From Glandiceps talaboti (taxonomy: Eukaryota > Hemichordata > Enteropneusta > Spengelidae), in contig NC_135551.1 in the NCBI RefSeq assembly GCF_964340395.1, forward strand, positions 6,230,463 through 6,294,462: a stretch of 64,000 nucleotides of DNA. Direction: 5' to 3'. Made by a program: the position numbers and the translations under genes. Under the pieces are notes generated by a model, which was given only the letters and a program-made list of their open reading frames with translations, did no database searches and was not told the DNA's origin. Positions 3,190 to 39,100 of the stretch are shown piece by piece. How positions within the stretch are numbered: position 1 is the stretch's first letter; each line of letters begins with the position of its first letter.

Positions 3190-4498
3190 TTAAATCTGGC
3201 CTTGTATTGATACGCCGGTAATGTAACTCCGTATTGCTTGTCGATAGTATTGACACGCCGTTTCAAACTCATTCAACTTGTTATACATATCACCTATCTT
3301 GACAAATACATCTTTGGTGTATGAGTCACTTTGTAAAAGTCTTTGATTACACGTTTTACCGCTTCCTTCCCCCACAGGTACTCAATGCCAAGTTTCACTG
3401 TTTGCTCGGTGAATTTAATGGCATTGGCAGTGGCTTTCAGATAGTTATCGTACACGAAAGCAGCAGTATAACACGCACATGACTTTGAACGTGGATCATT
3501 ACTTGTTTTAATCACTGACATATATGTTTCTATCGCTTCTAAATATTTTCCTTGATACTGTTGTATGGCGGCAATGCGTAAAGAAGCTCTTACGAACACT
3601 CCATCAGCACATTGTATTGCACGGTTGTAATATTCATTAGCTGTCACTAAATCCTCACTACAGCTTTGTTTACCACTCTCCACGTCATGTTTATATTTCA
3701 TTATGTGTATGTCTCCCATTCCAACGAGGTAATCTGGAGTATCTGGTATTGTCTCAATTGTTTTGTCGTAGTATTCAACTGCTTTGTCAAACACCTTCAT
3801 TTTATAGTACACATCACCAGCACACTGTAACACCCATGGAGATTTAGGATTTATACGGAGAGCTTCGTGTATTTCACGCTTTGCCTCATCAATGTTTAAC
3901 TCCATTAATATCACACCAAAGAAGTTCTAGCATAGCTATGATTAGGATTGATTTCCAGTACTCTCTTTAAAGATATTTTGCATTCCTTCATTGATAAAAT
4001 ATACTCCACATCTGTGGTCGCATACATCCTGCCACTGCGGTAAAATTGCAAAATACTTTTCAAGACTAGCCAATCTGGTTTGTTCGGGAAGACACTTAAT
4101 GCCCTCTTAAAACTATCTATACCTTCATTACACGTTTTCTTTACAAAATACGTAAAAGCGGTACCCTTGTGACCGTAGACGAACGCTTTCTGTTTCTCGG
4201 TCAGTTTACCACTCCCAAGCTGCTCTATTTCGTGCAATATTTCCCTAACCTTATCAACCTCACCTAACGTGTGATAAATCCAGGCTTTATCAGCTAGAAT
4301 AACTAACTTATCACCCAGTGGTCCATCCTTATCATCACTGCTTTCAAGTTCTTTCTGGTTATCACGGAGTGCTTTGTCAAACCATGATAAGGCAGCCATT
4401 GGATCTCTTTGCTCTGGAGGTCTAAGTTCTGATACCTGTAGATAACCCATCATGGCTGTATGTGGTGTTGGACTTAGTTCTGGGTGGTATGTTGTCTC
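3190..4498 (-). pseudogene. IFIT-like TPR exon with two frameshifts
   Basis: The exon starts at an acceptor at 4499-4500 and reads three frames in turn: 4498-3911, 3914 to about 3325, and about 3325-3190. Each contains tetratricopeptide repeats, for example 'GHKGTAFTYFVKK...EGIDSFKRALSVFP', 'EAKREIHEALRINPKSPWVLQCAGDVYYKMKVFDKAVEYY' and 'DVFVKIGDMYNKLNEFETACQYYRQAI' (shown in part). The layout, with an upstream CHFTWKL-type motif, is that of IFIT proteins. The frame changes at about 3912 ('NHSYART' in one frame, 'LMELNIDEA' in the next) and near 3325 are not in homopolymers, so real mutation is more likely than a run-length error. The vertebrate family has roughly 470 residues; this exon covers most of that. 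Confidence 0.75.
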
Positions 4499-4962
4499 CT
4501 TATATCCGCAAACACCATTCTATTAATCAAATACAATTGTACAATCATAGAGCAACACCACAAACATAAACGCTGATCTGTTCAATACTATTTAGCATTT
4601 ATCTGAATAATTTATGGACCAAAAATGTGTACTCTGGCACTCTATTGGCGACTACAAAAATATATTGACGTACTTTCAAATGTAAAATGCGTGATGATAT
4701 GCGGAACATTTTTTCCCGATAGTCCTTCCCTTTTCATTTTTTCGAGTGACGTCACGCCTTAAGTAATGACGGCTCCCTAAAGGCGAAGTAATATAACGAG
4801 ATCTATGTAACAAATCACATCTTCATCAACCCAAAGGACTCGAATTTAAGTACCGTGGAAATGGTTTTGTTCTGAAAAGACGCTTTACCAATACAGTTAC
4901 ACAGTTGTCCCTTGTTTCTTTTAGAAGCGAATGTACACAAGAGGTACATACTATCTAACATA

Positions 4963-5005
<43 letters not shown>

Positions 5006-8000
5006 ATATCACACATTTACCTTATATGATTTATTACATTCCTCTTCCAACTTCCATGTAAAGTGACAAGGTAGACTCATCAATATTTCTCGTTCAGATT
5101 TCTTTGTTGATTTGATATCCAACGTGAATGTGAAATCTAAACATAAAACAAGATATGTAATTTACATCTTAATAATTATTTATATCTCTTTGTGAGACAA
5201 TGTCTTATTACATAGTACATGCAAATCACTAACATTCCAATACGTGTGAGGAAAAAAATATTAAACGTCTTCAAATACGCGATGCAACTCGAACAGCTTC
5301 ATAACAAGTACACTCATTGTCACGTATTCGTCTACGCAGGGTTATCACAGAGAAACTGTTTCTTTTCTGACAACAGGAAGCATACCTTCTCAATGGCATT
5401 CAAACCGCAAACAACAATATACTCTCTTGTATTTTGAAGACAGTGTAGATTGGGGTGGAAATTGCGATGTCACGGTGATTACATTTGTTATGACTGACAA
5501 TATTATATATAAATAATGTAAATAAGGAATTAATTACAAAAAATACTAAAAAATAACCTTCTATCATTGGATCAGTTGTTTTCCGGTCACTTTCACTCAG
5601 ATCCGGATGACCTATGTGTTTAAGTTCACTTATCTGCTGACGTAATGATTCATTTTCACGTTTTATCCTTGAGTAGTGTTCAGCGATTATGTCGTCTGAT
5701 TTATCTTGTTGGCTTACAACTGACTTCATGGCTTTCATTTCCTTCTGAAGTATGTCTTGTTCCATCTGTGTACACTTCAACATCTTCTCAGTCTCACTAT
5801 GTTCTCCCCACAAATAGCTAAAAACGGAAAGATATTGATCGCGGGAGAGTAGTCTTAACACTGAGGGCGCACTTCTTATTAGCACGTCAGGACTTAAATG
5901 TTGAGGTTTCAAAGGTAGGTCGACTGCTTTATCCTCCATAAGGTTGAGTAGATCTGATAAGATAAATAGTGATAAGGTGTATAAACATCCCATAATATAC
6001 GACTATTTATAGTTTGTTATCGTCATTTGTTTGTTATTTTATGTTATTGTAGTGCTACAAATTCATGAACCAGAGAAAATTATGCAACTATGTTTGCGAT
6101 CAAGGCATAATCTCGTTTGTATTCGCGTAGAAAAAGAAATAAAAGAAAAAGTCGTGAATTCAACTGTCATTCAGAAATGATTGCATACCATTTGTACTGT
6201 ATTTATAACTATCGCCATCTTTGACACGAATAGAAGATGATTGATCGTCATCTAAGATGAGAAGTCTTTGGATACCAAGGGCAGACAGAATCTCTGGTTT
6301 TTCAGATATCAACATTGACAACTGTTGAGATCGTTGCAGCTCCAATAGCATTGTGATTGTAGTAGTCATTGCTGCAGCTTCTTCATCTGGTTCAGTCACC
6401 ACCGTTTGACAGCTTCCAAGTAGTTTTGATAAACCAAGTCTCATGGCATCGTCTTTGTACAGAGTATTGTCGAGTTGAATTGCTACCGTATCAAATGTAG
6501 ATGTAGTATCTAAGAAAGATGGAGACGATGATTATATTAGGTGACATAGAACTATATTCCGTCGAACTTGTTTTAAAATAATTGTACCTTGAAGTAACAC
6601 AAAACTGACAGTGTTTTAAATCATGTAGTGAATATTGATTGTACCATCGTATTGTCCGCTTCCTGATTTAGCCAATACAATATATCTACAGAGACCGAAA
6701 ATAGTGTCAGAAGTTGAGAACCGTTATTGAGATATATTGTCTGATCGTAAAATGTGCTCACATGTCGCGAAAACAGATGACTGAGTGGTAGCGACATAAC
6801 ATTGACAACCGTTAAGTGACACGATTTTATTAAATGAAAGGTTAAAAGGTTGGTTGAATGCAAATAAATATGAATGTATTAATTCAGGACAGGTGATAGT
6901 TCACAGTGACCTTGAAATCGTCAAGCTCACGCTTTCTTTGTTGGTTCGATATAACCTCACTAAAATGATTAATTTTGAAATTATACTTCTACTTGGCTGT
7001 GAGAGGCATTTCGAAATGTATATTCGAATTTTAGTTAGTTTCACGACACGCCTCGCCGTACTGTACAATTTATTTACAGCTTCAGGCTTTATAAAACCGG
7101 GTCCATTTGTGACAGCAGTCTCTAAATTTGAAGAATATGACGCTCAAATTGAAGTTTTTCCTTCAATTTTTACGCTTCATATACATGTAAACTATTAGGG
7201 AACCTTCAATAAGGGATCTGATTTCATTAGTTTTGCACTGTTTTTATTTTGCCATTCCATCATTGTATTACTACCAGAGCGACATCCACCCCCCACCACT
7301 TGCAACATTATTCCATAATATCAAAACATACAATTGAAATCGCCACTGATAGACCATATCATGTGGTGAATCCTGACACCACCATAACCTTATTAACGAA
7401 CTCAAGATACAGTGGGAAGATCATCCCTCATACCAAGAAGTTTAACACATTTCTCCAGTTCTTATCAGCCTACATTGGTTACCAGTTCGTTTCAGGATTG
7501 ATTACAAAATTTTACTCTACATATAAAGCTCTCCATGGCTTAACTCCAGAGTACATTTGTGATTTTCTCCAGCCATACACACCGAGTCGCACTCTACGTT
7601 CTACAAAAACAAGAATCTTCTTGCAACAACAAATTACAGACAAGTCACCTATATGGAGGTCGTTCATTCTCATACATCGCCCCCAAACTATGGAACTCTT
7701 TACCACTTGACATTCGCCAAGCCTCCAGCCTGGATTGTTTCAAAACAAAAGTGAAGACTTATTTGTTCACCCATAGACCCTACAAGTGTAGGGCCCATGG
7801 GTCACCAAAGCCTATATGGTGCACTGTAGCCATTCATCGCTACTGAACAGAACATTGCTCTGGAAATCGTTGCTATGCAAATTTCGATCGATTGATTGAT
7901 AAATTAGCAGAGGAGTGTGTGTCACAAGAGAGAGGGGTGGAGTGGGGAAGGGTAGGCTTTAAAAAATTAAGGATATTGCAGTAAAGCAAGATGTTGACCT

Positions 8001-10434
8001 CTGTTCAGGATATGTCAGTAAATCAACGTTAGAACGCCCTTCTAATCTTCAAGGGCCTGAAGCTCTGCCGATTAGATCCAAGTAAAGGGATTTGATTAAT
8101 GAACTTTGTCTCCGCACACATTCACTGTAATGGCAATCGTGGGAACTAATGGATGTCATTAAAAGTATCAACGCGATGACAGCGGTGGAGGTTTTATCAT
8201 TTATTGTCAGACTAGGAACCCTTTTCACTTATGACAAAATTGAATCCAATATGTTTTTTGAAAAAATGAACACGGGAAAAGGTAAACTTTTACAGATTGG
8301 GGAATTGCGCAAGGACACACTGTTAAGGTGACAGGGTGTACTTGATCCCGCTGTAAATTATTACTGAAGGTTACCTTATATACTTTATCGAAATACACAT
8401 ATATTCTGGCAACATTTTAAAAAAGTATTCCAACAAATGTATAGTGGTCTACATTGCTCTTGTTGACTATATCGATTCACTTCAATCATTCAGGAGGCAA
8501 GCAAGAAAGTGCACAAAAAACGTTCCCCAAACATAAGAATATATTTTATAGGGAAAATAGACCTGGTTATAATTAGCTCCCAGCCGATGCATTCGGTTCG
8601 GTACTTTCTCTATATAAATATATATAGAAACAAGCATGACATACCTGCACGTTTATCTTCCTGAGCTGTATCATTATGGATTTCTGGCACTGGTCTGGAT
8701 AACGCACAAACGTGTGACACTTCTACCCCACACGCATCACATATTTTGGGAAGTTCGTCGTTGCCTTGGTAACCTTGTGATGGAAGACATTATTTGTTTA
8801 CAAGAAAAACTCACATTTTACGTATAATACAAGTGAGTTATGTATTGGAATACAGTTATAAATTAATCTAAATATTACCTATTTTTTTACTGATTTAAAA
8901 TTCGTATATATGAATTACAATAACAAACTTAACTGTGAAGATTATACAGAACAGATGCTATTGTTACATATGTCTGTCTCTAGGCTTGTGGGGAGTGTCC
9001 TGGTTAATATAGACAGCATAGTAAATACCACACGTAGGTGTTGTACTGTTGACGGACACAGCAAAACGTGAATCACGTGGTAATTGCACACTACATCAAG
9101 AAAATAGTAAGCCAGGATATCATGCACGGGTCGGTTTGGTCTATGACATATAGACACCTATCGTTCATGGAGTATATACAATTTACTGTACTGTTAATGT
9201 TATGGCTGTCTCATCTGCCTTCTTTTATTCTACACATAAAATCCCAACCTGACTGCATTGTATATTCTATATGGAGTGTACAGTTACTAATATGGTATGC
9301 AATAATGTTTTAGTATATTTGTTAAAATTGTTCTAAGAACACAAGTTGTTTTTATTTGTAGCCATTGTATTAAATGACCATGAACAACAGTCATACATAT
9401 ACAACAATTGTGTTACAATGTGTATCAATCATCCTTTGCAAGAGACTGTCGCAACGTTTGTATGTTTCAGACTGTCTATTATAAAGTGGTGACAGATTTA
9501 GTAAAGTTTACTGGCCCAGGATCAGAAACCTTAAGTTGACTGGTCATACATTTTGACAAGATGTGGAAAGCAGAAGCATGTTTGCTCGCATATAGTTATT
9601 AGTTAAGTAGTAAATTAGCATGATATGTTTCGACAGACGACTGGAAAGTGGGTCAACAACTTGGTTGAATTTGCATATTTAATGAAGGACGTCTGGTGGC
9701 AATTGTGGTCATCCAATCATGTATAACATCCGAGTTGCTTTGACGCTTATAAAAGGGACTATTTTTGACAGTTATGGGATCTGATCTCCAGAGTTTTATC
9801 TAAGATGAACCTACAACGTTGCTGTTTGATTCCAGTATGGGGAATTTCTGAACTCTTTTATTTGCTTGGAAACTCAATGTTTTGCCGCGACCGTGAATAA
9901 TGCATAGTGTGGAACTGTACATTACAACAGTGAACAATCGTCAGTGTCGTCTACGATTTGTGTGCTGCAGCATACGCAGTGCGTTCAACGTATGTGCATC
10001 GATACGAGACAAACAAAGCTTTACATGGAACATTGTGAATAGTTTTATTTGCCACAACCAGCCATAAGTAATGTTCTAGTATACTCTATGTTTATATATT
10101 TTTTTTCGTACAAGCAATCTTGCTGTACAAAGTGTTGTAATTTTTTTTATCTAGATACAAATTTGACAAGTTCAAGTTAAATCTGTCACATCTGTGTGTA
10201 TGTTCTTTCTTATTTCTTCAGTGATCGTGGACCCTCCCCAGCCTGTACTTTATGAAAACCTGGCTTTCATGACACTGTCGAATCTGCACACCCAACCTAC
10301 TTTTGCTGTAACTGTATTTCAACACAGAAATCTTTTTCACTGTGTAACGTTCCAAAAGAGAGCTTTTAAAATATATTAGATACACCTGAGCTCAATGTGG
10401 AAAGTAGCTATATATTATATCACCGTCGATATGC

Positions 10435-10476
<42 letters not shown>

Positions 10477-13400
10477 ATAAAATGCAATGGCTACACTACC
10501 TTCTTTGAAATATCTCAACCTCAACAGAGCTCGTCGATATATCCGTGATGGTAGAGTAACCCGTAAGGACACTGTGGATACACTGCATCCCTGAAGTCGT
10601 TGTTCAGTTAAGATGTCATCCTCAAAGGACTTAGCGAGACGTCCTTCAACGTACTCATGCCACAAGTTCTGTAGTGATTCCGATGTCTCACAGTCTAGTA
10701 TAACCCAGAGACTGCCTGGTTTGATGAGTTCAATGGTGATAGGGCCTAACCTTGCCAGCAGTTCTTGTACACGTGGAAGGTCGTCTGGGTGTTTTATTTC
10801 ACGCATCACGATGTCTGATATCTGCCTGTGAATTTGAGATGGTGCTCCATTCCCCGACAGCGATGGTTGTAGGGTTGAGTCGACCTCCATAACCTCTATC
10901 AGAATTTTGATTAATCCTGTATCAAATTAAAAAAAGTACACACAAAGTTACACAATATACTCAAGTTCATATATAATAGCGATATTCAATACAAAATAAC
11001 AAACATGAAAGTAAATTTTGGATTTTGAAGATGTTCATACTGAATATCATGATGTAACTCTTTCCGTTCGTTCCTGAAAAGGTGTGAAAATTCCCGCGTT
11101 GGATGTTCATTGAAGTTTAAATAGAGCATTCATATGCTTATAAAGGTGTCTAGCTTCAAAAGTCACATTTGTCTTTTGCCGGTATATAGCTCTATTTTCC
11201 TGTCATTTTGAATTTATATTGATATCGATGACTTTCTTTCCGACCGAGTGCATTTGATTTCCCTCTATCTTTATCGGCCAGTGTAAAGTTTGACTGTATA
11301 ATGTGGGAATGAATACCTTATTCACACACTTTATTGGTGACTTTTCAATTTTAACAAATTTAAATTTGTGTGTGACTATTTCTCGTTGCAGAAAATTCCA
11401 ACGTTTATTCTGAGTGATCACTAGGTAGAAACTTGACTTAAATTTGGCTCAAGGTCAAAAGGACCAAGTGAAAAAATTATTTGAATTTGTTATTTTCTAA
11501 AATTTACAAATTTCCCAAAAGCCCCAATGATATTTTCCGATAGTTTGCTGTTTCTTCTACTATATGCCATCAAACTTTGTCCTGGTTAAAGAAAGATAGT
11601 AAAGAAAAAAGTGTAATTTAAATTTGACTTGGGGTCGTAAGGTCCTTCTTCTTTTCTTGGAGTTAGGCCATTATGACACTAACCCCTTCATTTGTAGACA
11701 CTGCAGTAACCTAAATATGTAATTATCTTTACAATTTTATTTCTGTTAAATCCGATGATGATTGAGTCGAGTACTAACAGTGGAAATTACAAATTCTATT
11801 ATAGTTATTCACTTAATGAAAATGTAATGCTTGAAGTTGTGAAACATACCTATCTTAGTCATAGTACTTATAGCATGAACATCTTCTGGACCGCCACTGT
11901 CATTCCCATCACCACCTGTATCGTGATATTTTTTATGATCACCATTTTTCTCTGTCTGTTGTTCTGAACTAGTGGTAAGTGATTGCTGGAAGTCATTTCT
12001 AGGATCACAGTCATCTTGAACAACAGTGTCTAGATTGAAATAAACAACAAGTGAAAATTATTTCCAAAGAGAGATAACAATGCATTTAAATGTAGGTCCA
12101 CGACTTTTAAATTGTTTTTTTATAAAAAAATATAGCATGATGTTATCTTTAATATTAATATTTTTATACTTTTTTTTTACATTAAACAAATAAATAATCC
12201 TAGACGCGCGTATGAAATATACATGAAGATACGAGATAAGACATCAAATCAAACAAATGACAAACTAGTAACACATGCATATAGGTAGTGTAATTATTCA
12301 AATACGAATTGAATATTTGTAGTTCTAGGTGAACCTGTTGGCAATACAAACAAATGAGAGGAACGTTGATATACCTGACGAGGTTATTGTGATAGGTTCC
12401 TTAATCAAGCAAGACATAGACCACTCCTTAAACTTCCTCTTAGACTCAGCAATCACACCATCTTGTGCTGATTTCTTGAGTTCGTCTTTGAGGGAGTTTG
12501 CTTGTTTACACGATACGTTGTATCTCACAAAGTTACACAATATACTCAAGTTCATATATAATAGCGATATTCAATACAAAATAACAAACATGAAAGTAAA
12601 TTTTGGATTTTGAAGATGTTCATACTGAATATCATGATGTAACTCTTTCCGTTCGTTCCTGAAAAGGTGTGAAAATTCCCGCGTTGGATGTTCATTGAAG
12701 TTTAAATAGAGCATTCATATGCTTATAAAGGTGTCTAGCTTCAAAAGTCACATTTGTCTTTTGCCGGTATATAGCTCTATTTTCCTGTCATTTTGAATTT
12801 ATATTGATATCGATGACTTTCTTTCCGACCGAGTGCATTTGATTTCCCTCTATCTTTATCGGCCAGTGTAAAGTTTGACTGTATAATGTGGGAATGAATA
12901 CCTTATTCACACACTTTATTGGTGACTTTTCAATTTTAACAAATTTAAATTTGTGTGTGACTATTTCTCGTTGCAGAAAATTCCAACGTTTATTCTGAGT
13001 GATCACTAGGTAGAAACTTGACTTAAATTTGGCTCAAGGTCAAAAGGACCAAGTGAAAAAATTATTTGAATTTGTTATTTTCTAAAATTTACAAATTTCC
13101 CAAAAGCCCCAATGATATTTTCCGATAGTTTGCTGTTTCTTCTACTATATGCCATCAAACTTTGTCCTGGTTAAAGAAAGATAGTAAAGAAAAAAGTGTA
13201 ATTTAAATTTGACTTGGGGTCGTAAGGTCCTTCTTCTTTTCTTGGAGTTAGGCCATTATGACACTAACCCCTTCATTTGTAGACACTGCAGTAACCTAAA
13301 TATGTAATTATCTTTACAATTTTATTTCTGTTAAATCCGATGATGATTGAGTCGAGTACTAACAGTGGAAATTACAAATTCTATTATAGTTATTCACTTA

Positions 13401-15236
13401 ATGAAAATGTAATGCTTGAAGTTGTGAAACATACCTATCTTAGTCATAGTACTTATAGCATGAACATCTTCTGGACCGCCACTGTCATTCCCATCACCAC
13501 CTGTATCGTGATATTTTTTATGATCACCATTTTTCTCTGTCTGTTGTTCTGAACTAGTGGTAAGTGATTGCTGGAAGTCATTTCTAGGATCACAGTCATC
13601 TTGAACAACAGTGTCTAGATTGAAATAAACAACAAGTGAAAATTATTTCCAAAGAGAGATAACAATGCATTTAAATGTAGGTCCACGACTTTTAAATTGT
13701 TTTTTTATAAAAAAATATAGCATGATGTTATCTTTAATATTAATATTTTTATACTTTTTTTTTTACATTAAACAAATAAATAATCCTAGACGCGCGTATG
13801 AAATATACATGAAGATACGAGATAAGACATCAAATCAAACAAATGACAAACTAGTAACACATGCATATAGGTAGTGTAATTATTCAAATACGAATTGAAT
13901 ATTTGTAGTTCTAGGTGAACCTGTTGGCAATACAAACAAATGAGAGGAACGTTGATATACCTGACGAGGTTGTTGTGATAGGTTCCTTAATCAAGCAAGA
14001 CATAGACCACTCCTTAAACTTCCTCTTAGACTCAGCAATCACACCATCTTGTGCTGATTTCTTGAGTTCGTCTTTGAGGGAGTTTGCTTGTTTACACGAT
14101 ACGTTGTATCTCTTTAGAGATCTCATGATTTTTTCTTCCCATTTATCACTTGCATCTTCTTGTGATTCTGCTGGTCCGATATCACAGGCTATGGAATTGT
14201 GCAGTGGAAAGTGTTTGTCTATCAATGTACCCATACCGGTAGATTTGTGTATTAAGGTTGGAATTCCTGCTGCAATGGCCATAAGACTAATCATGCCAAA
14301 TGGATCCTGCTTTGAACAGAATGCAACCAAGAGATTACATTGCTGTAAATCAGTCTGTATCTGGTCCGGCGACGATATCGGTGGATGAGGAACAATAGTA
14401 AGGTGGCCTGCCTTTCCCTTCTTTTCTAAATATTCCTTGCACTCTGTATGTGATTCTCCTGAAATGCCTCTTAACTTCCATACTAGTTGAACGTCATCAT
14501 ATTTATAGTATTTGACTACTTTTCCCATCACAATTGCTGCAACATCAAACTCTTTGAGATAATCGATGCTGGATATGCCATCTAATGAGAGAACCTCTAT
14601 TCTATTCTCCACTGAAGACGAATGGTAATGGAAATTAATGAACTCTTCTCCAAGCCAAGGTACATATTCAAGTGGAGTTTTATCTTCAAGCATAATGAAT
14701 TTTCTTTCATAGTGTTCGAACACATTTGACCCCAGATGCAAGAGAGTTTTGGAGTTCTTGGCGTACTGCAATGCATCTTTCTCTTTGACCTGCAGAGCAG
14801 TTGATATGAGCCCCATTTCTTCAGGAATGTCATGAAAAAATGGGACAAAATCTGCACTAGGGAAAAGCTCTTCTTGAAAGGTCATAGCCTCATCGGCCGT
14901 TCCAGATGTAGTGGAGACATAACCAAAGATTTGATAAATTGGGCCGCATTGCTTGGCATGTTCAAAACATTCACAAGGTAACATCAATGCATCACCCAAT
15001 GATATTCTCTTCTTAGGGTGTACTTTCGGTAAAATCAGATGGACATTGTGTTGTAGTGCATCATCCACTTCTGTCTGCGATGCTTCTAGAACAGTACAGT
15101 AGACTCGGTGTCCACATTTAGCCAGGTTTATCAAAAGCTCTTTCTGTATCAGAAAAGGGGCTACACCATACCTGTTTGGCCACCATTCTCTACCAATGAC
15201 TAGTGCAGCTCCAGTATTTGATGCCATGCCAATCAC
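3190..15236 (-). CDS. Multidomain gene: GT-B glycosyltransferase-like + TRADD-N-like + IFIT-like TPR (3' part frameshifted)
   Basis: Eight exons can be chained on the minus strand: 15236-13961, 13614-13435, 10916-10500, 8773-8645, 6509-6189, 5953-5558, 5136-5021, 4498-3190. Every junction has AG/GT borders and the phases agree (six phase-1 introns, then one phase-0), which argues strongly for a single transcript. Domain order: GT-B glycosyltransferase-like, acidic linker, TRADD-N-like, CxxC exon, unknown helical exon, coiled coil, IFIT-like TPRs. IFITs bind viral or non-self RNA in vertebrates; TRADD-N mediates TNF-receptor signalling contacts; an immune or sensor role here is inferred. The first exon starts at a splice acceptor, so a further 5' exon must exist; the first Met is four codons in. 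Two frameshifts in the last exon mean a pseudogene or assembly errors. Confidence 0.72.
4963..5008. repeat. (AAAT)n microsatellite
   Basis: About eleven AAAT units lie in the intron between the CHFTWKL exon and the TPR exon. Confidence 0.9.
5021..5136 (-). CDS. Exon with the IFIT-type CHFTWKL motif
   Basis: Acceptor 'tgtttag' before 5136 and donor 'AAG|gtaaat' after 5021; phase 1 in, phase 0 out. The 38 codons include 'EREILMSLPCHFTWKLEEE'. Vertebrate IFITs carry a very similar L-x-C-H-F-T-W-x-L block at the N-terminus just before the TPRs, and it stands in the same place here, directly before the TPR exon. This is the best single piece of evidence that the TPR region is IFIT-like rather than a generic TPR protein. 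Confidence 0.75.
5558..5953 (-). CDS. Coiled-coil exon of the GT/TRADD-N/IFIT gene
   Basis: Acceptor 'cttatcag' and donor 'GAAG|gttatt'; phase 1 at both ends, 132 codons open. It begins 'LLNLMEDKAVDLPLK' and then has heptad-rich helices with many K, E, Q ('IIAEHYSRIKRENESLRQQI'), consistent with a coiled coil of about 60 residues. No catalytic motif is visible. It probably spaces or multimerises the protein between the signalling-type and IFIT-like parts. Confidence 0.65.
6189..6509 (-). CDS. Unknown helical exon of the GT/TRADD-N/IFIT gene
   Basis: Acceptor 'ctttcttag' and donor 'AATG|gtatgc'; phase 1 at both ends, 107 codons open. The translation ('FDTVAIQLDNTLYKDDAMRL', 'MTTTITMLLELQRSQQLSML') looks helical and soluble. 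I do not recognise a domain; a death-fold or TPR-like helical segment is possible but I see no diagnostic residues. Confidence 0.6.
7390..7846 (+). pseudogene. Non-LTR retrotransposon fragment (CR1/L2-type reverse transcriptase C-terminus)
   Basis: Two overlapping plus-strand frames together give the typical C-terminal tail of CR1/L2-like reverse transcriptases: 'STYKALHGLTPEYICDFLQP', 'PSRTLRSTKTR' in one frame and then 'YGGRSFSYIAPKLWNSLPLD', 'IRQASSLDCFKTKVKTYLF' in another. The frame change near 7650 makes it non-functional. It lies antisense in an intron of the GT/TRADD-N/IFIT gene. Confidence 0.85.
8645..8773 (-). CDS. Short CxxC-containing exon
   Basis: Acceptor 'cttccatcacaag' and donor 'GCAG|gtatgt'; phase 1 at both ends, 42 codons open. 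It contains 'ICDACGVEVSHVC', two closely spaced cysteine pairs and a histidine that could bind one metal ion, then an acidic linker. The polypyrimidine tract is weak, so this is the least certain exon, but its phase fits both neighbours exactly. Confidence 0.55.
10436..10477. repeat. (CAA)n microsatellite
   Basis: About fourteen CAA units lie just inside the intron after the TRADD-N-like exon. Confidence 0.9.
10500..10916 (-). CDS. TRADD-N-like domain exon
   Basis: Acceptor 'tttgatacag' and donor 'GAAG|gtagtg'; phase 1 at both ends, 138 codons open. The translation has 'VQELLARLGPITIELIKPGS', 'LWVILDCETSESLQNLWHEY', 'VEGRLAKSFEDDILTEQ' and 'STVSLRVTLPSRIYRRAL'. The pattern (beta strand, hydrophobic strand, helix ending in L-W-x-x-Y-x-x-G-x-L, then a strand pair) is that of the TRADD N-terminal domain, which occurs in large families in amphioxus and other invertebrates. 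In vertebrate TRADD it binds TRAF2. Assignment is from remembered family pattern; a profile search would decide. Confidence 0.65.
11850..12029 (-). CDS. Duplicate linker exon (copy A)
   Basis: Identical to the linker exon at 13,435-13,614, with the same acceptor and donor. Because the exon is phase 1 at both ends it can be spliced in once or twice without disturbing the frame. Confidence 0.5.
12375..12525 (-). pseudogene. Truncated copy of the glycosyltransferase-like exon 3' end
   Basis: This repeats the last part of the exon ending at 13,961, including its donor, but duplication cut off everything before 'RYNVSCKQ'. No good acceptor lies at the cut, so the fragment is probably skipped in splicing. 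Confidence 0.7.
12526..14112. repeat. Tandem duplication, copy B (1,587 bp)
   Basis: The second copy runs into the intact glycosyltransferase-like exon at 'acgttgtatctc'. It holds the linker exon and the exon end that belong to the complete gene. Confidence 0.95.
13435..13614 (-). CDS. Acidic, disordered linker exon
   Basis: Acceptor 'caatctag' and donor 'ATAG|gtatgt'; phase 1 at both ends, 59 codons open. The translation is rich in D, G, N, S, Q ('TVVQDDCDPRNDFQQ', 'GGDGNDSGGPEDVHA') with no hydrophobic core, so it is probably a flexible linker between the glycosyltransferase-like and TRADD-N-like domains. Confidence 0.7.
13961..15236 (-). CDS. GT-B (GT4-like) glycosyltransferase-domain exon
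   Basis: Acceptor 'tatctctag' before 15236 and donor 'TCAG|gtatat' after 13961; 425 codons open. The N-terminal half has 'ALVIGREWWPNRYGVAPFL' (about residues 11-29) and 'LAKCGHRVYCTV', the Rossmann start of GT-B enzymes. The C-terminal half has 'VHLILPK', 'KQDPFGMISLMAIAAGIPTL' (about residue 315), the counterpart of the E-P-F-G-x-x-x-x-E-A-x-A-x-G-x-P nucleotide-sugar site of GT4 enzymes. Here both usual glutamates are replaced (D-P-F-G and L-M-A), so catalysis may be lost and a ligand-sensing role is possible. GT-type domains joined to NLR-like immune proteins have been reported in corals. The first Met is at 15,227-15,225, but the exon is preceded by an acceptor, so the true start may be further 5'. 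Confidence 0.75.
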
Positions 15237-19189: not shown

Positions 19190-19240
19190 TAGGGAGTGTC
19201 CAGATTTTACTTCCAGGGGGACGCTGGAGGATTTCCAAGT
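19190..19240. repeat. Inner inverted block, left
   Basis: 'gggagtgtccagattttacttccagggggacgctggaggatttcc' matches the reverse complement of about 23,836-23,885, one of several mirrored blocks inside the element. Confidence 0.75.
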
Positions 19241-19242
19241 CC

Positions 19243-19618
19243 TTGTGTGTATGTATGTATGTATGTATGTATGTATGTATGTATGTATGTATGTACGTAC
19301 GTACGTACGTACGTACGTATGTATGTATGTATGCATGCATACATGCATGCATGCATGCATGTGTGTATGTATGTATGTATGTATGTATGTATGTATGTAT
19401 GTATGTATGTATGCGTGTATGTATGTATGCGTGTATGTATGCATGCATGCATGCATGCAGGCATGCATGTATGTATGTATGTATGTATGTATGTATGTAT
19501 GTATGTATGTATGTATGTATGTATGTATGCATGTATGCATGTATGTATGTATGTATGTATGTATGTATGTATGTGTGTGTGTATGTATGTATGTATGTAT
19601 GTATGTATGTATGTATTG
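19243..19618. repeat. Long (GTAT)n microsatellite with GTAC, GCAT and GTGT variants
   Basis: About 375 bp of tetranucleotide units. The long Met-Tyr-Val-Cys or His-Thr-Tyr-Ile frames on both strands are products of the repeat, not genes. Confidence 0.97.
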
Positions 19619-19689
19619 TGCTAGTTGTTATACTTTGATAGACAAGTTTTACTTCTATTTCGAGTATTAGGGGATTTCACTTGGCAAAA

Positions 19690-36186: not shown

Positions 36187-39100
36187 TTAATCTTGTATTT
36201 CAAATTCAAACACCTCTGAGATGGTTGCTTGCAGATCATGCAAGTTGTGCAACAAATCCAGAAATTGTATTTTGGTACGTGCTTTCTTCAACTCTATCAT
36301 TAATTCTTCTTTGTTCTGTATAGGCAGTGTTTTAATGATAGAGTTGATTTCTGCTTTGAGTGTGGAAATGGTCTTGTTTTCATCTTTTTCACACTCAAAG
36401 CGTTCCTCCTCAGTGATATACAAGGGTGCTTTCCTTCCAGTACCAGGATACTTACCTTCACATATCATACTTACCAGTTTAGAACGTCGACGATCAGCAT
36501 TGATGGTAAAATTACTGATGTCTCTGTCCAAGGCTTTCCCATTGATGGTTATAGGTAACCGACCAGCCTGATACTTAACATATTGTGCCTGTCTCAGTTT
36601 TCCCCTGAAACACAGTAAGTCAATGGTGTAACCTGGGCGAGTACGTTCCAAAGACTTTGGGTTTGCAAGGCCAACAACTGAGAAGACTGTCTTTCTCAGA
36701 CTGGCCAGATCATCCAACCTACTACAAATGGTTAGCCACTTACCAGAATCTGGTACTGGAGGGGCCCAGGATTTTACATTTTTATTGTATTCTTCTAAGA
36801 CTGCGTCCGCCCCTTGATGAGCATCAGGCCTGCCAGATCGTGAAATGGCCTCGTGTGCCTCCAGGGTATGGCACAGCTCATCTGGATACTTTGCACGGTC
36901 AATTTCATCATATGTATCAATAAGTTGATACATAGGATGATTTCGACCGTGCCATAAGGAGCGGAGCAGTCTTCTTCCTGCACGCAGGGTCACTGTCTGA
37001 TTTTGTCTTGTTCCCTGGTGGAAAAGAAAAATACCTTGTAATTGCTGTAGTAAGATATTGTACATGAAATTCAAATGGGAATCACTAAGTGAGACTGCCT
37101 TCAACCAGCCCAAAAATGAACTGGCAGACAAGTCTACACTTGGATTCATCACTTGAAATTCATGTAACAGTTCCATCCAGATACTGTCCCTGAATTTGTG
37201 AAGGTCAAATGATATGTGATGGTCTGAGCACTTCTTCACAAATTCAAGGGATTTATCTGAATTGTACCCCTGAGAAATGGCAAAGTCCTTATAAATTACA
37301 TCCCAATATAACCCCACAAATGATTTAACTCCATTGATTTCCTCATGTAAAAGTCCCGTCCTCAAAACAACCCATGAAAACTCCCCTGTGGCATCCTCTG
37401 ATAAAATTCTACGTATAATTACATAAGGTAACCCATCACATCTGATTATAACCCATTCCCTCTGTCTATGGGTCCCCCCATACCCCCGGGTACCCCCATA
37501 TTGCCTAATGTGTGCCCTAGCCCCAATGTGGTGAAGTACCTGTCTTACTGATTCTACTTTGTTGGGATTAACAAATAAAGGGGGAACAACTAAAATATCA
37601 ATTTTCTCAGGGCCCAAATTAAATTCATCATTTGTGACAATTTGAATCGATTCCTTACCTGAATGATCCATCTTCACTTCCCCTTTGTATTCATGGAAGA
37701 CAAGTCCCTTCTTCTTATTCTGGGATTTTATAGTGGGTGCAATGTATGTGCTAGTATCTTTTCCCACTGATTTGTGGTACTTTGCCATCCAAACACCACA
37801 TGAACGACATTTCAATATTCGTTTTGATTTGTCATTCATGTGGTGTTTGAATTGACACTTAGGACACGTCGTTGTAATGTCTTTCTGTTGTTGTTTGTCC
37901 AAGTACATATCTATGTCATCTGTCTGTGGTGTTGAGTCAGGATCAGATGAGATTGCATTAGACAAAATCAAAGAGTTAACATAGGAAGTGACAGATTCAT
38001 CTGCAACAGAATTCAACAAAGGAAACTCATATTCCTCCTTCTTGGTCACATCAGTGGTAGTTACATCCTTCCACTCACTCGGTTTCATACTGCTATCATA
38101 CTGTAAAGATGAACATTTATCTAACTGAGAAACAATAACATTTGTAAAAATATCTAAAGTAACATTATTCCCATTTCTATTAATATAATTCTTTGTTAAA
38201 GGTGATTCAAAATGCTCACATTCACTATCGCTAATTTGCTAGACGACATGTTTGTGAAATGCATTCTGGTTTTAAAACTTTTCAAAAGCGTCTGCAAACA
38301 CCTTAAAATGACCCTTTTTCAGTCACTTCCCTTCGGATTTACTTCGTGAGTTTTCGGGTATTTCCGGTCCCACCTAGACCACGGGATTTTATGACGTCAT
38401 AAGAGGTATACCTTAGTACTAAGACTATGACGAGCGTAGTCACTAGGTGAATAAAACTCAACAGCATTGTGAAAAAATACATTGCTAGTGGTTGTAACAG
38501 ACATCAGTAAACAAAAACTACACTCTACATGTCTTATTAACCAACATTTACCGATATTTACTCACATTTTCTCACTAATTGGCAGTATCTGTGGGTATAA
38601 ATGCTAAAATATTATCTCCCCATATTATGGCAAAATAAATCAAAACGGCTAGACTACAGTGTAGATATACATAAACACTTGTAATGTCGGTCGCGTGTTT
38701 CAATTTATTTATCTGATTTTTTTTATTATTTGCCGAGGAGAAGCATTACAATATCTTCGACATGCATGGCGTCGACAGCATATTTTAGCCCACTATACTC
38801 GACTATACTCACTGATGTCGCCTTTTGAACGGCGCATTTAGCAACAAAGTAAACATATTTATCTTGAATAAATAAACTAGCTATTAGATTGCCATATTAT
38901 CAGCAATAAAATTGTAAAGAATTGAGGAAATTTCGTGAGTTTAGTGTTGTCATTTACATGACTTTAGCAACTCGTCTGGAAGAAAACTTGTATGGTTTCC
39001 CTTGTTGCGATATCACTTAATTTAATGCAGCAAGCCTATTTAATATTCATTAGAAGAATTTTGTAACGAATCATGGTATTCGAAGTATACAGTTTAGGAA

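Follow-up and report, generated by a model that had tools for sequence, protein, structure and literature searches.

Does a stretch of hemichordate DNA encode a single protein in which a glycosyltransferase fold, a TRADD-N-like domain and an IFIT-like TPR region are joined, and what would such a protein do? The question is raised by a locus in the window, by which we mean the whole stretch of 64,000 nucleotides that was analysed (C4:6230463-6294462, in a genome of 590 Mb and 47 contigs). A first-pass annotation had proposed for this locus an invertebrate immune sensor in which the glycosyltransferase fold senses a ligand, TRADD-N signals and the TPRs bind RNA. The domain trio proves to be largely right and the sensor idea fits, RNA binding by the TPRs being the part of the proposal that found no support. 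On balance, we read the locus as a copy in decay, one of seven in a tandem family of cytosolic immune receptors, and the family, as far as its sequences can tell, has the look of a home-grown repertoire of intracellular receptors for pathogens.

Exon chain of the window copy

Read on the minus strand from 15236 to 3190, the locus comprises eight exons, with AG acceptors at all eight of them and GT donors at E1 to E7. The incoming phases are 0 for E1, 1 for E2 to E7 and 0 for E8, and the frame is continuous from E1 until it meets a first stop in E8. This check of borders and phases confirms the eight canonical minus-strand exons in matching phase that had been described from the letters alone. 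The features of the locus are the following:

13961..15236, minus strand: E1, the GT4-conflict (glycosyltransferase-4 fold) head, with its ATG at 15227; assigned by PF20706, borders and phase
13435..13614, minus strand: E2, a linker exon of 180 bases with AG/GT borders and phase 1-1
12376..12526, minus strand: duplicated 3' end of E1, part of a tandem duplication
11850..12029, minus strand: E2', the tandem copy of E2, within the 1587-bp duplication
10500..10916, minus strand: E3, the TRADD-N-like domain, borderline with PF20694
8645..8773, minus strand: E4, a short linker exon, assigned by borders and phase
6189..6509, minus strand: E5, a family-specific domain of about 100 aa
5558..5953, minus strand: E6, the probable coiled-coil exon
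5021..5136, minus strand: E7, the IFIT N-terminal exon with CHFTW
3911..4519, minus strand: E8, first part, the IFIT-like N-terminal half, in the frame of E7 and ending at a stop
3190..3926, minus strand: E8, rest, the IFIT-like C-terminal half, with two frame changes and relaxed selection

The ATG of E1 (15227) is aligned with an ATG in all five sister heads, and the borders of E3 and of E5 to E8 are conserved in those sister copies where the exons are complete. In the six sisters, no match to E2 was obtained (E<=0.01), and E4 has a single weak one (E 2e-4), in sister B, so that for these two linkers the support consists of borders and phase alone.

A tandem duplication of 1587 bp with 99.87% identity, which a self-alignment places at 10941-12526 versus 12526-14112, copies the end of E1 together with E2; when E2' is added to the chain, the frame stays open and the sole stop is the final one. 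This head-to-tail duplication (10941-14112), with its symmetrical linker exon repeated in frame, either arose very recently or is an artefact of assembly. Immediately downstream of the gene, minus-strand fragments at 1584-2507 resemble parts of an LTR element, namely its reverse transcriptase and its aspartic protease, and plus-strand frames in the E4-E5 intron (7231-7846) look similar to the C-terminal end of a LINE-type element. Elsewhere, the window holds a long ACAT-type simple repeat (19240-19620) and a minus-strand open frame of 683 codons (36190-38238) with a CxxC-type segment.

A tandem family on contig C4

Genome-wide, E3 has 13 matches, the first half of E8 has 15, and PF20706 has at least 57, which may include ordinary GT4 enzymes. 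Seven tails, here called A to G, lie at C4:6.06-6.41 Mb, the window copy being E. Sisters A, B, D and G carry, in this order, GT4, the TRADD-N-like exon, two E5-E6 pairs, E7 and E8, and the window copy has a single E5-E6 pair. In sister F, GT4, E7 and E8 are accompanied by parts of E3 and E6, with no match to E5, and sister C has the tail exons with no head within the 15.9 kb around the tail. E6, E7 and E8 stand in order in all six sister tails on C4, and a GT4 head with at least part of E3 lies upstream of the tail in five of the six, a repetition of the exon order that chance does not explain. On the same contig, the E8 tail has two more partial matches, L035 (C4:6193425) and L036 (C4:7126475), one of them with an internal stop and the other near a match to E5 (C4:7124875). 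Other candidate GT4-TRADD-N genes lie farther along C4, at 11.7-12.4 Mb.

Decay of the window copy

Even though E8 had been described as a single open exon, it takes three frames to align it with the sister proteins (4513-3917, 3911-3318 and 3345-3193), and the reading frame therefore ends at the stop just below 3914. A third frame change, suspected from the translations, was dropped, since the sister proteins require only two. The last exon is intact in all six sisters, with 430 to 449 codons, and it is these sisters, rather than the window copy with its twice-frameshifted last exon, that represent the intact gene assumed in the first reading.

Past the first frameshift, the singleton N:S count is 16:2 in the window copy versus 22:25 in five sisters summed (Fisher p 0.002), and ahead of it 4.5:3.5 versus 20.5:26.5 (p 1); sister C, near-identical to A in E8, was left out of this comparison and of the groove test below. 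Since the substitutions past the frameshift show relaxed selection, the decay of E8 looks real, and the tail end of the window copy seems, from this pattern, to be decaying in the organism and not merely in the assembly. The first part of E8 has w of 0.23-0.39 when the window copy is paired with the six sisters, and its head has w of 0.13-0.31 when paired with sisters, on large dS. The product of the window copy would be the head, the adaptor and half of the IFIT part, or nothing useful.

A GT4 head that has lost donor-site residues

E1 matches PF20706 over residues 12-393 (E 1.3e-40), and the glycosyltransferase-like domain originally proposed holds up well on this GT4-conflict profile, with 140 bits against a cut-off of 26, the profile being a broad one that all 14 control genomes pass too. 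We take the donor-site positions to be the Gly-Gly of a loop, the FGR arginine, the Lys that follows it, and the second Glu of EX7E. In the eight highest-scoring of the 57 GT4 matches (L001-L008), the Gly-Gly, Arg, Lys and Glu are kept in 8/8. None of the six family heads has the first Gly, the FGR arginine or the second Glu of EX7E, the last being replaced by Met or Ile; four of them keep the second Gly and three the Lys. The first EX7E acid is Asp in all six, as it is in three of the eight L001-L008.

The six IFIT-fused heads form one clade (98/94) among the 34 GT4 domains tested, of 57 found. The second Glu is missing from every one of the 14 rows in the wider clade around the family heads (84/94), and its loss therefore extends past the IFIT-fused family. 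Within head groups, the heads are constrained, with w of about 0.3. On the residues lost, the GT4 heads of this family are probably pseudoenzymes and not enzymes, and the earlier suggestion that the fold senses a ligand becomes plausible, because donor-site residues are gone.

A further 20 lower-scoring GT4 matches were read, which brings the matches read to 34 of 57, and the second Glu is absent from nine of these 20 and present in 11. The nine (L054-L058, L060, L061, L066 and L069) lie outside the IFIT family, and the pseudo-GT4 group may be larger. The viral contigs scanned with the GT4 head held no relative of it, PADLOC gave no match to it, and a phmmer search of the head against the PDB returned nothing at E<=1.

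The adaptor exon and the central region

With PF20694 (TRADD-like_N), E3 gives an E-value of 0.006 and 16.8 bits, under the cut-off of 23.7, and the E3 exons of four family sisters fall under it as well (15.4-22.6 bits); among more distant paralogs, two pass it (24.0 and 28.7 bits). In single scans, nine of ten paralogs match this profile at E<=1, and in an alignment of paralogs that includes the window exon, 11 of 13 rows match the TRADD-N family at E<=0.1. A single-sequence AlphaFold model of E3 has a pLDDT of 42, too low to model the alpha/beta fold expected of TRADD-N, and a phmmer search of the exon against the PDB gave one unrelated match only (E 0.17). We therefore call E3 TRADD-N-like, on evidence that is borderline but consistent: the TRADD-N assignment made at first is borderline, in that the profile matches agree with one another and the family exons scanned all fall under the cut-off.

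When E3 was scanned together with E5 to E8 against Pfam, TPRs were found and no LRR. E5 is 88-93% identical to the full sister copies, its 12 genome matches at E<=0.001 are all on contig C4, and it has no Pfam family at E<=5. E6, with 73-80% identity in the five sisters that match the whole exon, is a probable coiled coil, to judge from its match to the KASH_CCD coiled-coil profile (E 1.2e-4, under the cut-off).

The IFIT-like tail and its source

CHFTW is present in E7 of all seven copies, and the exon is 87-90% identical in the six sisters. A phmmer search of the PDB with E7 and the first part of E8 from the window gave seven matches at E<=1, five of which are IFITs, the best being IFIT5 at 9.3e-5, and the remaining two a designed TPR protein and a chemotaxis protein (0.1 and 0.65). 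With profile A4, made from the IFIT part of four sisters, all four PDB matches at E<=1 are IFITs, and the IFIT-like TPR region with a CHFTW-type motif, as first recognised, is well borne out. The second part of E8 alone is not IFIT-specific, because designed TPR proteins and OGT come ahead of or level with IFIT5, which ranks 17th (5.1e-7). Profile A1, which combines five intact tails with six stand-alone relatives, aligns with IFIT5 in a single stretch, 77-444 on 93-469 (E 6.9e-49), IFIT5 being the best natural protein among the matches listed, where two designed TPR proteins score higher. Among the intact copies, the A-C pair aside, the first half of E8 has w of 0.25-0.37.

Contig C22 carries the stand-alone relatives, a group of five IFIT-like genes at 7.59-7.62 Mb and a sixth at 0.38 Mb (L049-L053), with open frames of 748-774 codons. 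Beyond the part that they have in common with the fused tails, they have a C-terminal region of about 300 aa, which carries an N-x-x-K-H motif in four of the six. No GT4 or TRADD-N was found near them at E<=0.01 in 45 kb. In E7, and likewise in the first exons of three of the four stand-alone genes examined, 16 codons separate the GT donor, in phase 0, from the first motif residue; in the fourth gene the donor comes after 18 codons. The first motif residue is Ser in one gene and otherwise Cys. Because the tail intron has its position in common with three of four stand-alone genes, the comparison suggests that an IFIT-like gene, captured as DNA, gave rise to the tail. Retrotransposition, which has been proposed generally for TRADD-N fusions (PMC8195603), was considered as a source of the tail and fits poorly, since the intron is kept at the same place.

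Variation at the TPR groove

TPR positions 2, 5, 9, 12 and 13 line the concave groove. At these positions in four C-terminal repeats of the five distinct intact tails, the mean entropy is 1.41 bits versus 0.51 at the 76 other positions, with a permutation p of 5e-5 that is post hoc, because the pattern was noticed in the same alignment before being tested there. Among the 2002 five-position sets in helix A, the groove set ranks 4th, and when the register is slid from -6 to +14, zero gives the highest value of the 21 shifts, the maximum elsewhere being 1.16. In the two repeats with full register, the other exposed positions give 0.47 and the core 0.42. Values of w are 0.92 for the groove, 0.46 for the rest of that half, and 0.32 for the first half.

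The fifth repeat hardly varies (0.14 bits in the groove and 0.08 in the rest of helix A); when it is included, the contrast is 1.16 versus 0.47 (p 5e-5), with a groove w of 0.97. As w is 0.92-0.97 and not above 1, and dS is raised at the groove too (0.69 versus 0.30), relaxed constraint or conversion could add to the pattern, and five tails make a small sample. Placed by sequence register, the differences among tails concentrate at the TPR groove in four of the five C-terminal repeats.

Separate histories of heads and tails

The heads fall into three groups, namely A, B and D; E; and F and G. Between these groups, dS over GT4 and TRADD-N runs from 1.2 to over 3 or is saturated, whereas over E5-E8 it is 0.02-0.42. 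The DNA similarity of E to A, B or D, introns included, extends over most of 3.2-6.5 kb and ends near 6490 of the window, above which it is found in exons only. Given that the heads are anciently diverged and the tails are close across head types, the simplest reading of these sequences is that a single fusion took place long ago and that gene conversion, or exchange of tail modules, came later.

Alternative readings of the locus

Such a separately evolving tail would also be expected if the chain consisted of two adjacent genes, one GT4-TRADD-N and one IFIT-like, which agreeing phases make appear as one. An in-frame ATG in E7, four codons before the Cys of CHFTW, would make a start there possible, and the headless stretch around the tail of sister C points the same way. 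However, the splice acceptor of E7 is in phase with E6, E7 does not have the start that is seen about 20 codons before the motif in the stand-alone genes, and the head-tail order is repeated in five sisters. We therefore consider two genes very unlikely, and the eight exons would rather be transcribed together. At the other end of the chain, the frameshifts of E8 might be assembly errors in an otherwise intact window copy; in view of the N:S excess past the first frameshift and the lack of any difference before it, this explanation strikes us as very improbable.

Regarding function, the colinear IFIT homology of the tail would be in line with a sensor of the vertebrate IFIT type, whose ligand is 5'-triphosphate or cap-deficient RNA. 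The triphosphate contacts of IFIT5 include K150, R186, Y250 and R253 (PMC9677429). In the A4 alignment, which is weak in places, K150 and R186 each correspond to an invariant Tyr in the tails, Y250 to Leu or Trp, and R253 to Lys, Arg, Gln or His, the equivalents of Y250 and R253 lying at two variable groove sites, TPR positions 2 and 5 in the first of the C-terminal repeats. With these four contacts not kept, the RNA binding attributed to the TPRs at the outset has no residue-level support; the tail does not resemble a triphosphate sensor of the IFIT5 type, and an RNA sensor of the vertebrate kind is unlikely, even though RNA might be bound in another way. The head, in turn, could be an enzymatic effector, an active GT4 that modifies invader molecules, as proposed for GT4 conflict domains by Kaur et al. 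(PMC8195603), with TRADD-N and IFIT only directing it. Bacterial systems do place GT4 domains in effector positions (PMC8195603, section 15), the heads of this family are under constraint, and some of them retain the Lys and the second Gly. The second Glu, the first loop Gly and the FGR arginine, all kept in L001-L008, are nevertheless missing from the six family heads, and we hold an enzymatic role to be highly doubtful.

A proposed receptor mechanism

In the preferred reading, that of a family of cytosolic immune receptors, an intact and expressed gene would produce a protein that starts with a GT4-fold head in which donor-site residues have been lost, continues through a TRADD-N-like adaptor and a family-specific domain with its coiled coil, and ends in an IFIT-like TPR superhelix. 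Non-self ligands would be bound in the IFIT groove, where the contact residues vary by copy. The coiled coil and TRADD-N would then cluster and, by analogy with TRADD-N biology, might recruit death or NF-kB-type signalling partners, and the pseudo-GT4 head may serve as a second ligand- or partner-binding module instead of an enzyme.

A broader picture can be drawn only tentatively, and we regard it as possible with rather less than even confidence. These proteins would be diversified invertebrate intracellular receptors with a conserved signalling core (pseudo-GT4, TRADD-N and coiled coil) and an IFIT superhelix whose groove varies by copy; their tails would have been exchanged or homogenised among three old head types, head and groove specificities being recombined, and IFIT-type proteins, both fused and stand-alone, would exist outside jawed vertebrates.

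The presence of IFIT-like genes both on their own and joined to a TRADD-N-like domain would point to an origin of IFITs before the jawed vertebrates, and the fusion would link the IFIT fold with a death adaptor. A small tandem family in which variation is focused on the groove offers a testable case of non-self recognition by TPRs. The lost donor-site residues are also an argument for binding, as opposed to glycosylation, as the mode of action of at least one branch of animal GT4 conflict proteins.

Comparison with known systems

The fusion closest to this family was described by Kaur et al. in 2021, who placed GT4 before TRADD-N and LRRs after it in proteins of cephalochordates, hemichordates and cnidarians, and who also described TRADD-N with TTC28-like TPRs (PMC8195603). 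The word IFIT does not occur in the main text of that paper, and among the papers listed from the open-licence PMC literature, judged by title and start of abstract, none describes a GT4-TRADD-N-IFIT fusion. The first-pass annotation had stated that no described protein joins these domains. For GT4 and TRADD-N this does not hold, their fusion being already published (PMC8195603), and the new part appears to be the IFIT tail only. The GT4-TRADD-N(-LRR) proteins, as presented in the sections of PMC8195603 considered here, resemble the present family in having GT4 before TRADD-N (borderline in our E3), a lineage-specific expansion, and a variable C-terminal part. They differ in what follows, since the family described here ends in an IFIT-like TPR region, with no LRR in the Pfam scan of E3 and E5 to E8, and its heads lack donor-site residues.

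With the vertebrate adaptor TRADD, the family shares the TRADD-N superfamily, through a borderline profile match, and no Death domain is among the Pfam matches of the family exons scanned. The stand-alone genes on C22 are alike in their CHFxW-type first exon and, in three of the four examined, in the position of its intron, and are 34-36% identical to the first half of E8; they differ by a C-terminus longer by about 300 aa and by the absence of GT4 or TRADD-N within 45 kb. Zhou et al. reported in 2013 that TPR proteins but no IFITs are found outside jawed vertebrates (PMC3688568), a claim on which the six C22 genes bear.

With the vertebrate IFIT1, IFIT2, IFIT3 and IFIT5, finally, the family has in common the CHFTW N-terminus and a colinear TPR superhelix. 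Contrary to these proteins, the superhelix is here fused to a GT4 head and a TRADD-N-like domain, the residues of the triphosphate pocket are changed, and the exon layout is unlike the usual mammalian one, as given in PMC3688568.
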